Of a stretch of DNA of 64,000 nucleotides, positions 55,605 through 58,477 are shown piece by piece. Origin of the DNA: Lysobacterales bacterium (GTDB taxonomy: Bacteria > Pseudomonadota > Gammaproteobacteria > Xanthomonadales > Marinicellaceae); assembly GCA_026982315.1 (NCBI GenBank), contig JALSHI010000025.1, positions 1 to 64,000 on the forward strand, read 5' to 3'. The translations under genes and the position numbers were made by a program. Position 1 is the stretch's first letter, and the number at the start of each line of letters is the position of its first letter. The notes under the pieces are model-generated. The model saw only the letters and a list, made by a program, of their open reading frames with translations, searched no databases and was not told the origin of the DNA.

Positions 55605-57731
55605 ATGCAATGGTTGGCGCGATTACTCTGTTTGATGCTGAGCCTCGGCGGGCTGCCGGAAGCAGGCCATGCTGGTGCGCCGTCCGTCGGGGCCATAGAC
55701 GAAAACAATACGGTGCCGGAGATTCTGGCTTCGTCAGAAAAGCCGGCCAGCCCCGTCTGGTCGGTAGACAGTGTGCGCCTTGGGCCCTCAGTATCGGCTG
55801 CTACATCCGGCAAACACACAGCGATCCCCCAGCAGTCGCATGTCTTGCAGTGGTCAGGTGCCCGCTGGCCATCGTGGGGCTTGTTTTCGCCGCGAGGGAT
55901 GATCGACTGTGCCGGTAACCAGCAGGTTTTTCCGGAAATGAGCTGCCCCAATGGCCACATTCAGGCCGAGCTGATAACAGCGCATAGCCAAGTGACGCTG
56001 GATTATCCGGTTGCCGCCTTCTATAACGCCATTACCGGCCGGTGGCGCGTGACGTTGAACCACTCGGACGGCGGACAATGGCGACTGGAATATGCGCATA
56101 ATAGTGCAGCAGAGGCACGCGTTAACGACTGGCCTGTGCCGGAATTATTGCGATGGTTTGGCATGGACACCGCATCATTTGTGGACGTATTAACAGGTTT
56201 TTTGAACGCCCATTGGCAGGTGATGCCTGTTGACAGTAAAAGTTGGCTCAGAGGGGATTTTTCCCTGCGAAAGATTAACTGGGAAAGCGCTCAAGGGGAC
56301 TGGGTTCTGGCTGATGTGGATATTTCGGCGGCAAGCGTGGTAGCGCCTGGACATCATGTGTCTGGCACCAAGGACAAAAAATGGCGCATTCGTTTTACTC
56401 ACGGCCAGATAACCGCTGGAGAGGCGCTGCTGGGCGATTTTTATTTTGACTGGCAACAGCAACCTCTGGACTGGTCACTTGAGGTATGGCTAACAGCGAC
56501 CGGCCATGTGGAAAAGATGCAAGGCTCAGTAGGTGTTGACGGTGTGTTCATCCTTGATTTTCATGCCGTGAACTTGAATAAGAAAGGGAAGCCGAAAAAC
56601 GGCTTTATCCGCTTTCAGGTGGATAGTCTGGAACGCCTGAACACGTTGTATCTGAAGGATTTTCTGGCACTTAAAGGCTGGGCTGATGCCCGGTTCTTCG
56701 GCAAAATGCACGGTGAACTTCACTGGCGTGACAACCAATGGCACAAGGCGGATATCAGCTTGTCTGATGTGGACATGACGGTGAAGACGAAAAAACTGGC
56801 CACGAAAGCCCTTTCCGGAGAGCTGCACTGGCGCGCTTTCAAGCCTGTGCCACCATCCTGGCTCCATTGGCGACAGATGATGTTGGCAGGCTTGCCGGTT
56901 CAGGCTGCCGGTCTGGGCTTTTTCTTCGCCGGAGACAGTCTCCGATTTCCCGACCGGACGACCTTGCCTGTTTTTGACGGGGCGTTGGTAATCGATCATC
57001 TGTTTATGAGCCGGCTGTTTTCTGCGGCAATTGATGTTGATTTCAGTGGCCGCATTGAACCGATTTCCCTGGCGCTGATTACAGCAAAAATGGGTTGGCC
57101 GGTGATGCAGGGAACCTTGTCCGGTATCATTCCGGGGATGCACAAAAAAGGTGAGCAAATTGCGTTTGACGGCACCATCGATATTTCGGTTTTTGGTGGT
57201 CAACTCAAGGTCAGTCACTTGTCCATGGAGCGGCTGTTCGGGGTGGCACCGGTGATAGCCGCTGACATTGCTTTTGACAAACTGAATCTGCAGAACATCA
57301 CCACCACGTTTGATTTTGGCGAAATCACCGGCCTGGTGGCTGGAACAGTGAACGGTCTGCGAATCACCAATTGGAAAACCGACCGCATGGATGCCGAAAT
57401 TCATTCAGTCAAAAGCCCGGGCGTCAAGCAAACCCTGAGCCAAAAAGCCTTGGATCGAATCAGTTCGTTAGGGGGTGTTCAAGGCGCCATATCACGCTCA
57501 TTTTTGCGATTCTTCAAGCGTTTCCGCTATCATCGTTTGGGCCTGCGTTGCCGTTTGCGGCAAGAGGTCTGTGAAATGGGCGGTATTCGGCCGTTCAAGG
57601 GCGGTTACTTGCTGGTAGAAGGCGGCGGTTTGCCCCGAGTCAATATTATTGGCTATCAGCGATTTATTGACTGGGAAGAGTTTCTCGACCGCTTGCTGAA
57701 CCGGGACTACACCGATGCACAAGTGGAGTAA
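55605..57731 (+). CDS. YdbH-like (AsmA-related) intermembrane lipid-transport protein
   Basis: A 708-residue protein with a short signal/anchor segment (1-22) and a long beta-rich body, as in the AsmA-like proteins that bridge the inner and outer membranes and carry phospholipid. The C-terminal block (about 560-690) is the best match to YdbH: DFGEITGLVAG, RISSLGGVQGAISRSFLRFF, YHRLGLRCRLRQEVCEMGGI and YLLVEGGGLPRVNIIGY. E. coli YdbH works with lipoprotein YnbE and chaperone YdbL; a related lipoprotein is encoded next. The ATG lacks a clear ribosome site. TATCAT (55593-55598) is a possible -10. Confidence 0.78.
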   Translation: MQWLARLLCLMLSLGGLPEAGHAGAPSVGAIDENNTVPEILASSEKPASPVWSVDSVRLGPSVSAATSGKHTAIPQQSHVLQWSGARWPSWGLFSPRGMIDCAGNQQVFPEMSCPNGHIQAELITAHSQVTLDYPVAAFYNAITGRWRVTLNHSDGGQWRLEYAHNSAAEARVNDWPVPELLRWFGMDTASFVDVLTGFLNAHWQVMPVDSKSWLRGDFSLRKINWESAQGDWVLADVDISAASVVAPGHHVSGTKDKKWRIRFTHGQITAGEALLGDFYFDWQQQPLDWSLEVWLTATGHVEKMQGSVGVDGVFILDFHAVNLNKKGKPKNGFIRFQVDSLERLNTLYLKDFLALKGWADARFFGKMHGELHWRDNQWHKADISLSDVDMTVKTKKLATKALSGELHWRAFKPVPPSWLHWRQMMLAGLPVQAAGLGFFFAGDSLRFPDRTTLPVFDGALVIDHLFMSRLFSAAIDVDFSGRIEPISLALITAKMGWPVMQGTLSGIIPGMHKKGEQIAFDGTIDISVFGGQLKVSHLSMERLFGVAPVIAADIAFDKLNLQNITTTFDFGEITGLVAGTVNGLRITNWKTDRMDAEIHSVKSPGVKQTLSQKALDRISSLGGVQGAISRSFLRFFKRFRYHRLGLRCRLRQEVCEMGGIRPFKGGYLLVEGGGLPRVNIIGYQRFIDWEEFLDRLLNRDYTDAQVE

Positions 57732-57835
57732 AAACGAAATCGGCTTGAAAGATTATTTCATGGAAACCATCGGGCGGTTCAGCTGGCGTTGGCAAGCCGC
57801 GTTATAATGGCCCCAAGTGATTCGGGAGAAGAACA

Positions 57836-58477
57836 ATGTCTACGGCAACTCAGTTATATTCACCTGGCGCCACCGTCAAACGTAGCGGCTTCCGCTGGCT
57901 TTTGCTGGGGTTGGCTGCTGCACTGATTAGTGCTTGTGTCACCATCAATGTGTACTTTCCGGCTGCCGAAGCCGCCTCGGCGGCCGGAAAGCTGGTGGAA
58001 GAAATTATTGGCGATGAAGAAAGTGATGCCAGCAAGCATACACCTGCCGGTGAAAACCCGCAAGGCGCATTATGGCCGCGGCTTAACCCGCTTAACTGGC
58101 TGATTCCTGTGGCGCATGCCCGGGCCAATATTGATATTTCCTCGCCAGCCATCAATGAAATCAAACAACGCATGAAGCAGCGTTATGAGCAATACCTGAA
58201 AAAGTGGTTGGATGCGGGTGTGATTGGCTTTAATAATCAGGGGTTTGTGGAAATTCTGGATATGAGCAAGCTGGGCCTGAAAGACCGGCAGCGGGTCAAA
58301 AAAGTGGTGGCGGATGAAAACCGTGACCGCAAGGCGCTGTACCGTGAACTGGCTGTGGCCAATGGCCATCCGGAATGGGAAGAAGAAATTCGCCAGGTGT
58401 TCGTGAAACAATGGATCGCCAAGGCCCACACAGGTTGGCATTATCAAAAGCCGGATGGTTCCTGGGCGGTGAAGTAG
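57836..58477 (+). CDS. Lipoprotein joining a YnbE-like N-terminus to a YdbL (DUF1318) domain
   Basis: A 213-residue lipoprotein with lipobox ISAC and lipidated Cys34. Straight after the Cys comes TINVYFPAAEAASAAGKLVEEI, here split as TINVYFPAAE and AGKLVEEI: a beta strand then helix reminiscent of the short outer-membrane lipoprotein YnbE. A linker (about 65-100) leads to a DUF1318/YdbL domain (about 100-213) with EIKQRMKQRYEQYLK, ADENRDRKALYRELA and GWHYQKPDGSW. In E. coli YnbE and YdbL are separate. The gene lies 104 nt after the YdbH-like gene on the same strand. GGAG precedes the ATG. Confidence 0.75.
   Translation: MSTATQLYSPGATVKRSGFRWLLLGLAAALISACVTINVYFPAAEAASAAGKLVEEIIGDEESDASKHTPAGENPQGALWPRLNPLNWLIPVAHARANIDISSPAINEIKQRMKQRYEQYLKKWLDAGVIGFNNQGFVEILDMSKLGLKDRQRVKKVVADENRDRKALYRELAVANGHPEWEEEIRQVFVKQWIAKAHTGWHYQKPDGSWAVK

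Follow-up and report, generated by a model that had tools for sequence, protein, structure and literature searches.

Organization of the locus

The window, a stretch of 64,000 nucleotides from a 2.24 Mb assembly that is 99.02% complete, carries on its forward strand a single frame of 213 codons (57836–58477; open reading frame analysis). It encodes the precursor of a lipoprotein combined with a YdbL domain, an assignment drawn from the frame itself, Pfam matches, homologues and their alignment. A Shine–Dalgarno-like GGGAG (57824–57828) lies before its ATG. Upstream on the same strand is a gene of 708 codons for a YdbH-like (AsmA-type) partner (55605–57731), recognized from its open reading frame, from the homologues found upstream in fused loci and from the beta fold predicted for the L060 homologue. 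The original prediction of a single lipoprotein after a YdbH-like gene holds: the gene is real, correctly placed and on the same strand, and its 213 codons include a lipobox with Cys34.

The precursor begins with a lipoprotein signal peptide (residues 1–33; 57836–57934) ending in the lipobox ISA/C, and in the window protein ISAC34 is followed by VTINVYFPAAEAASAAGKLVEEIIG. Cys34, Val35, Thr36, Asn38, Tyr40, Phe41 and Pro42 do not vary across 24 aligned sequences, a conservation of the N-terminal motif (N-motif) that is overstated because the filter used to collect the sequences asks for C...FP; the filter ignores the Ala-x-Ala site described below. The lipobox suggests that Cys34 is lipidated. 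Sorting of lipoproteins to the outer membrane is governed by the residue that follows the Cys, here Val and not Asp, and the lipoprotein is thus probably sorted to the outer membrane.

Residues 34–59 (57935–58012; CVTINVYFPAAEAASAAGKLVEEIIG), referred to here as the N-part, comprise a short extended stretch and then a helix, which is predicted in the L060 homologue both with and without the partner. The alignment, and the presence of this part as a separate gene in three genomes, mark it as a counterpart of YnbE by position. A hydrophobic segment, LNPLNWLIPV (residues 83–92; 58082–58111), delimited from the sequence, the alignment and the hydropathy values of the family, precedes Ala-His-Ala (residues 93–95; 58112–58120). 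Conservation among homologues makes the latter a predicted internal signal peptidase I site, at which the cut would be expected after 58120. The chain ends with the DUF1318/YdbL domain (residues 119–213; 58190–58474).

The YdbL domain

Residues 119–213 match the Pfam family DUF1318/YdbL (PF07027; E 1.3e-18; score 67.7 bits, cut-off 27), and E. coli YdbL (PDB entry 28oj) is matched by profile (E 3.7e-7). The predicted fold agrees. In the model of the L060 homologue, residues 829–923 superpose on 28oj (VIA-align Z 10.0, r.m.s.d. 1.9, 86 residues, 26% identity), and 28oj is the only match at E ≤ 0.001 in a Foldseek search with the L060 lipoprotein model (E 7.6e-4, TM 0.81 by target). A DUF1318/YdbL C terminus had been proposed, and the PF07027 match together with the predicted fold of the homologue bears it out. 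The name of the PDB entry is 'probable chaperone-like protein YdbL', and in E. coli YdbL reportedly acts as a chaperone for YnbE, a finding attributed to Kumar in 2024.

The C-terminal domain, as modelled in the L060 homologue, shares its fold with E. coli YdbL but is preceded by approximately 25 extra residues and by the lipoprotein part. The extra residues fall between the Ala-x-Ala and the DUF1318 match (residues 96–118; 58121–58189) and contain a conserved segment, ISSPAIxxIxxxMxxR, for which no counterpart is seen in E. coli YdbL when the sequences are read by eye.

The N-terminal part and its split relatives

The link between the N-part and YnbE comes from gene order. PF13617 (YnbE) has no match anywhere in the window's genome at E up to 10, in a search which, like that with PF11739, gives a match in the E. 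coli control; a separate ynbE gene elsewhere in the genome, which had been named as grounds against the proposed combination, was accordingly not found at this limit. Profile comparison of the N-part with YnbE gives a probability of 2.5% and aligns three columns (TIN) only, and the YnbE-like appearance suggested for residues 34–65 is not detectable beyond these letters.

In three genomes of the phylum sample (G315, G505 and G467), a gene for a small lipoprotein with CVTINIYFPAA stands next to one for a secreted DUF1318 protein. In G315, the first is a 58-residue frame ending ...CVTINIYFPAAAAEKAADKIIEEVWQLDQEKNEEEQ, and the secreted protein encoded after it has a signal peptide that ends ...LLFFLIFVLIPLTGLAQA before NLEVNTPAI; the arrangement in G505 and G467 is the same. 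The YdbH-like gene is on the same strand as the lipoprotein gene, within approximately 50 bases of it in G315 and G505 and at approximately 0.6 kb in G467. The resulting order of YdbH-like gene, small lipoprotein gene and secreted DUF1318 gene is that of ydbH-ynbE-ydbL in E. coli K-12. Because the split relatives keep this order, we infer that the N-part stands for YnbE, by context and not by similarity. A small lipoprotein between the YdbH-like gene and the DUF1318 gene is found in the split relatives only; in the window its place is taken by the N-part of one gene. Of the earlier proposal that YnbE and YdbL are joined in one lipoprotein, the YdbL part stands and the gene order of the split relatives speaks for the rest, whereas likeness of the N-part in sequence does not. 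A single gene appears to serve in place of both ynbE and ydbL, and the arrangement suggests that the lipoprotein part and YdbL work as a pair.

In a midpoint-rooted tree of the DUF1318 part (70 rows, 136 columns), a long branch with full support separates the 15 classical rows from all others, of which 52 are fused and 3 split. The split rows sit in three different places among the fused rows, with weak support, and the split genes may therefore have arisen by repeated splitting. Judged from these sequences, the combined gene looks like an old sister lineage of ydbH-ynbE-ydbL. A recent fusion of E. coli-type genes was rejected on account of the long branch and the lack of a shared N-part.

E. 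coli YnbE has been proposed to pair by strand with the C terminus of YdbH (cited in PMC12045153), and an N-terminal strand extending the YdbH groove had been expected here. A joint AlphaFold2 model was calculated for the L060 homologue as one chain running through the intergenic stop, from 121 aligned rows (21 such chains). The model (mean pLDDT 87.8) is long and mostly beta, with strands from residue 32 to 674, followed by a disordered intergenic stretch, a helix at residues 752–767 corresponding to the N-part after CVTINVYFP, a short helix at residues 792–800 just before the Ala-x-Ala, and the YdbL domain. In this single joint chain no strand is assigned to the residues after the Cys (residues 741–750, pLDDT 58), which neither establishes nor contradicts such strand pairing. 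The N-terminal helix differs little in confidence with the partner (pLDDT 94 and 90 in two blocks of ten) and without it (93 and 82), and docking is thus not clearly indicated by the models. When the L060 lipoprotein is modelled alone, the same N-terminal helix and YdbL domain are obtained, and the linker and the Ala-x-Ala are coil (pLDDT 59–71).

The YdbH-like partner

For the product of 55605–57731, neither Pfam nor NCBIfam gives a match at E up to 10, and at the same limit PF11739 (YdbH) has no match in the window's genome. Nor is PF11739 among the 11 Pfam families matched by any of 34 YdbH-like members. The weak Pfam matches of these members to YhdP (4 of 34, best E 0.0077) and T2SSN (1 of 34, E 0.051) point, at the level of sequence, to the same broad group as YhdP and T2SSN/GspN. 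Profile comparison of the YdbH-like family with 19 classical YdbH proteins gives a probability of 81.5% (E 1.1e-5), against 39.8% for the reversed control; for the C-terminal parts only, the value is 50% over 109 columns. Single YhdP or E. coli YdbH sequences score under 3%. On the strength of the 81.5% against 39.8%, and of single sequences under 3%, the partner is called AsmA-like, and YdbH-type by context. The identity first given to the upstream gene thus stands to the extent that an AsmA-like gene precedes on the same strand, and fails in the match to PF11739.

The best hit of the YdbH-like family in a PDB sequence search is a putative cell adhesion protein (E 0.011), and E. coli YdbH finds no solved entry at E up to 1. 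Searches with the joint L060 model (Foldseek and VIA-align) return long beta proteins, the best being apolipoprotein B100 with a large r.m.s.d.; these matches do not tell which AsmA-like family is at hand.

Of 141 fused loci, some of which are the same gene fetched twice, 110 have the YdbH-like gene immediately before the lipoprotein gene and in the same orientation. The other 31 comprise 3 loci with less than 600 bases upstream and 28 with at least 1.5 kb upstream, holding other genes and no partner. Where the two genes are apart, the partner is usually located elsewhere: 20 of 25 genomes searched have a YdbH-like gene. The five without it are G002 and G003 (lipoprotein absent too), G023 (87% complete), and G077 and G240 (odd lipoproteins). 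Conversely, G017, which is 94% complete and belongs to the same family, carries the YdbH-like gene and lacks a lipoprotein match.

The N termini of the YdbH-like proteins (55605–55680 in the window, and 96 homologues) look like cleavable signal peptides and not like a membrane anchor. Ala-x-Ala follows the hydrophobic core in 57 of 96, as counted by a simple script that also chose the start codons. A cleavable N terminus would be unusual for a bridge from the inner to the outer membrane; for E. coli YdbH, PMC12045153 describes an inner-membrane anchor.

The window genome encodes a YhdP (L226, G000:C43:1133-4903; E 4.9e-175), in a gene distinct from 55605–57731. The TamB model has no match in this genome at E up to 1. 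With the YhdP match clear and a TamB match absent, the genome seems to hold, of the three E. coli phospholipid transporters, only YhdP and the YdbH-like unit.

Distribution of the combined form

A relative of the lipoprotein is present in 31 of 41 genomes searched, the window's own included. Among 184 genomes sampled from the class, DUF1318 occurs in 51, PF13617 in 18 and PF11739 in 19, one of these weak and below the cut-off. The 18 genomes with PF13617 are the 18 with PF11739 above the cut-off, and all have DUF1318. The long form is found in 33 of the 184 and the E. coli form in 18; the two sets do not overlap, and the 33 have neither PF13617 nor PF11739. A survey of fused against separate forms had been proposed, and on these counts the fused form is the commoner. 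The YdbH-like profile A2 matches strongly (E below 1e-130) in 32 of the 33 long-form genomes and in none of the 18 E. coli-form genomes; 19 of these 32 supplied rows to A2 and so match it by construction, and 13 did not. The long-form genome without an A2 match is G077. Two more class genomes, both without DUF1318, match A2 weakly (2e-6 and 2e-5).

The lipoprotein profile matches 82 genomes in a larger class sample of 370, and in 73 of them the protein is encoded in one frame. The remainder consist of one split case (G315), two that are neither fused nor split (a broken frame in G556 and a run of N in G599) and six distant ones that hit the C-part; at least four of these six (G048, G078, G153 and G161) belong to the classical type. 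In the phylum sample of 299 genomes there are 32 matches, and one-frame forms were found outside the class too. Among the best 80 of at least 568 loci from named genomes, fetched with two peptide patterns of which one was the N-motif, the best matches are to Lysobacterales, with Marinicella among them. Being widespread, the combined form is no oddity of the window genome; restriction of the feature to that genome is ruled out by the matches in 31 of 41 genomes and 82 of 370 class genomes.

The alignments were built from parts of the collected sequences: A1 from 24, A2 from 34 of the 96 complete YdbH-like genes together with window rows, A3 from 121 rows and A4 from 72 rows.

A conserved internal Ala-x-Ala site

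In the 24 aligned proteins Ala93 and Ala95 are invariant, within a linker that varies in length and letters. The wider count was made on 132 distinct sequences, left after removal of nine exact duplicates from the 141 fused loci; the window protein (Ala-His-Ala) is not among the 132, the motif filter left out the G240 protein (L199), and L200–L205, which match in the C-part only, stand outside the count. Ala-x-Ala is present in 129 of the 132, Val-x-Ala in two and neither in one (L076, from G077). With shuffled linkers (200 runs), Ala-x-Ala appears in a mean of 46 and a maximum of 62 of the 132, and the upstream stretch of the real linkers contains it in 32. A set of 38 loci fetched later gave 36 sequences, L253 having been missed by the filter and one sequence repeating the first set; 34 of the 36 have Ala-x-Ala, and the other two have Val-Ser-Ala and Ala-His-Ser. 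The middle residue is free (His, Gln, Tyr, Glu and others), and Gln, Asp or Ala often comes next. AXA is the most common signal peptidase site according to PMC8844934.

The stretch before the Ala-x-Ala is hydrophobic, with a mean best-10 Kyte–Doolittle value of 1.57, compared with −0.59 for the preceding linker. This is below true signals, which reach 2.42 in the lipoprotein signals of the same proteins and 2.4–3.7 in the three split genes; these two groups served as the reference, the classical YdbL rows being left out because at least 4 of 15 were cut wrongly (L098, L096, L090 and L085). The ten residues before the Ala-x-Ala carry 0.8 charged residues on average. Being weaker than true signal peptides and containing charged residues, the stretch may be an uncleaved relic. 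The arrangement resembles a signal peptidase I substrate in that small residues occupy −3 and −1 behind a hydrophobic segment, although this segment is weaker than usual. In the AlphaFold2 model of the L060 homologue the Ala-x-Ala lies in a low-confidence linker (pLDDT 48–72) between two folded parts, and folding thus does not explain its invariance.

The signal peptides of the split-off YdbL proteins end where the fused proteins carry the Ala-x-Ala. That YdbL is tied to the outer membrane, as first supposed, is for this reason doubtful, and its release is at least as likely. Given that Ala-x-Ala is nearly invariant and that the split genes carry the YdbL signal peptide at this place, we infer that signal peptidase I probably frees YdbL.

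In two genomes, the lipoproteins (L076 in G077 and L199 in G240) have a degenerate N-motif and no Ala-x-Ala, and no YdbH-like partner was detected. Their N-parts read CATTNAYFPARA in G077 and CATTQPQFNSD in G240. These cases, two only, would tie the site, the N-motif and the partner together.

Proposed processing and alternatives

We favour, by a little more than even chances, a precursor from which two components of a YdbH-type system for lipid transfer derive: a lipopeptide at the place of YnbE, and YdbL, freed by cleavage. The precursor would be exported by Sec, lipidated and cleaved by signal peptidase II at Cys34, as the lipobox suggests, and cut by signal peptidase I after Ala95, releasing YdbL into the periplasm, as suggested by the Ala-x-Ala and the split relatives. 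The lipopeptide would then be sorted to the outer membrane, where it would presumably meet the YdbH-like beta-groove protein. The predicted products are an outer-membrane lipopeptide (residues 34 to ~95) and the YdbL domain (residues ~96–213); YdbL and its client would be produced in a 1:1 ratio, with delivery in cis. Such a cut would reconcile the single chain with the separate genes if YdbL has to be free, as the E. coli gene encodes it; otherwise the chaperone would be tethered. That the whole amounts to a Gram-negative polyprotein, which two signal peptidases cut into a lipopeptide and a soluble, chaperone-like YdbL made 1:1, with the chaperone released only after both have crossed the membrane, seems to us an evenly balanced proposition.

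The protein might instead stay whole and be held at the outer membrane by its lipid, with the Ala-x-Ala as a relic or as an element that binds the partner. The single open frame in 73 of the 82 matching class genomes, the weakness of the hydrophobic stretch and the protein's own lipobox all agree with a tethered YdbL. A relic should decay, yet 129 of 132 and 34 of 36 sequences retain both Ala residues within a variable linker, and the site is predicted to lie outside the folded parts. We think tethering the less likely of the two readings, possible and rather doubtful. A different route, in which YdbL is also translated on its own from an internal start codon, besides the full-length lipoprotein, with the hydrophobic stretch and the Ala-x-Ala as its signal peptide, appears very improbable. 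An in-frame ATG, GTG or TTG does occur 13–32 codons before the site in 77 of 131 genes (46 of them ATG), but a Shine–Dalgarno-like 4-mer precedes such a codon in only 3 of the 131, and residues 63–82 of the window protein include none of the three codons. The starts are not conserved and, with a Shine–Dalgarno-like 4-mer in so few genes, an internal translation start was rejected.

A further possibility is that the system is not of the YdbH type. It could be another AsmA-like system, nearer for example to GspN or YhdP, with a cleaved N terminus, another task and an N-part unrelated to YnbE. The missing PF11739 match, the weak Pfam matches to YhdP and T2SSN, the cleavable look of the YdbH-like N termini and the long branch separating classical YdbL from the fused and split DUF1318 rows are in keeping with this. 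The YhdP of the genome is a different gene, however, the order ydbH-ynbE-ydbL recurs in the split loci, the YdbL part is predicted to fold like YdbL, and in the 51 DUF1318 genomes of the class sample the long form does not overlap with PF11739 or PF13617. We accordingly regard another AsmA-like system as unlikely, and a YdbH-type unit with a cleaved precursor as the preferred reading.

Relation to known systems

The closest known system is ydbH-ynbE-ydbL of E. coli (PF11739, PF13617 and PF07027). The three functions and, in the split relatives, the gene order are the same, as are the C-terminal DUF1318/YdbL fold and the position of a lipoprotein beside a long, mostly beta, AsmA-like protein. 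The locus differs in that the lipoprotein and YdbL are one chain, with an N-part that lacks detectable similarity to YnbE, and in that the partner falls outside PF11739, is shorter than E. coli YdbH (708 against 879 residues) and has a cleavable-looking signal peptide. The findings point to a second, apparently alternative form of ydbH-ynbE-ydbL. In the class sample this form outnumbers that of E. coli, and its lipoprotein part and its partner both escape current Pfam models. In the literature covered on YnbE, YdbL, DUF1318 and internal signal peptidase sites, with the main YdbH–YnbE study outside its scope, the combined protein was not found described. The form makes the role of YdbL testable: whether it must be free or bound, and whether or not it acts on its client in cis.

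Staphylococcus aureus LtaS, which SpsB cuts (PMC10865820), offers a precedent for a signal peptidase that frees a domain by internal cleavage. As in LtaS, a folded extracytoplasmic domain would here be freed from a membrane-anchored part, by a cut that is a predicted one. LtaS is a polytopic Gram-positive enzyme, whereas the anchored part of the present precursor would be a lipopeptide. Should the internal cut prove real, the precursor would be a simple example of a bacterial envelope polyprotein.

Upstream of some fused lipoproteins the place of the YdbH-like gene is taken by another gene. In Wenzhouxiangella and allied metagenome-assembled genomes (L046/L133, L118, L120, L129, L130, L131 and L136), the fused lipoprotein is preceded by an unrelated gene ending GELRPVYNGEERLREAAGQGF, which we take to be RadA-like.
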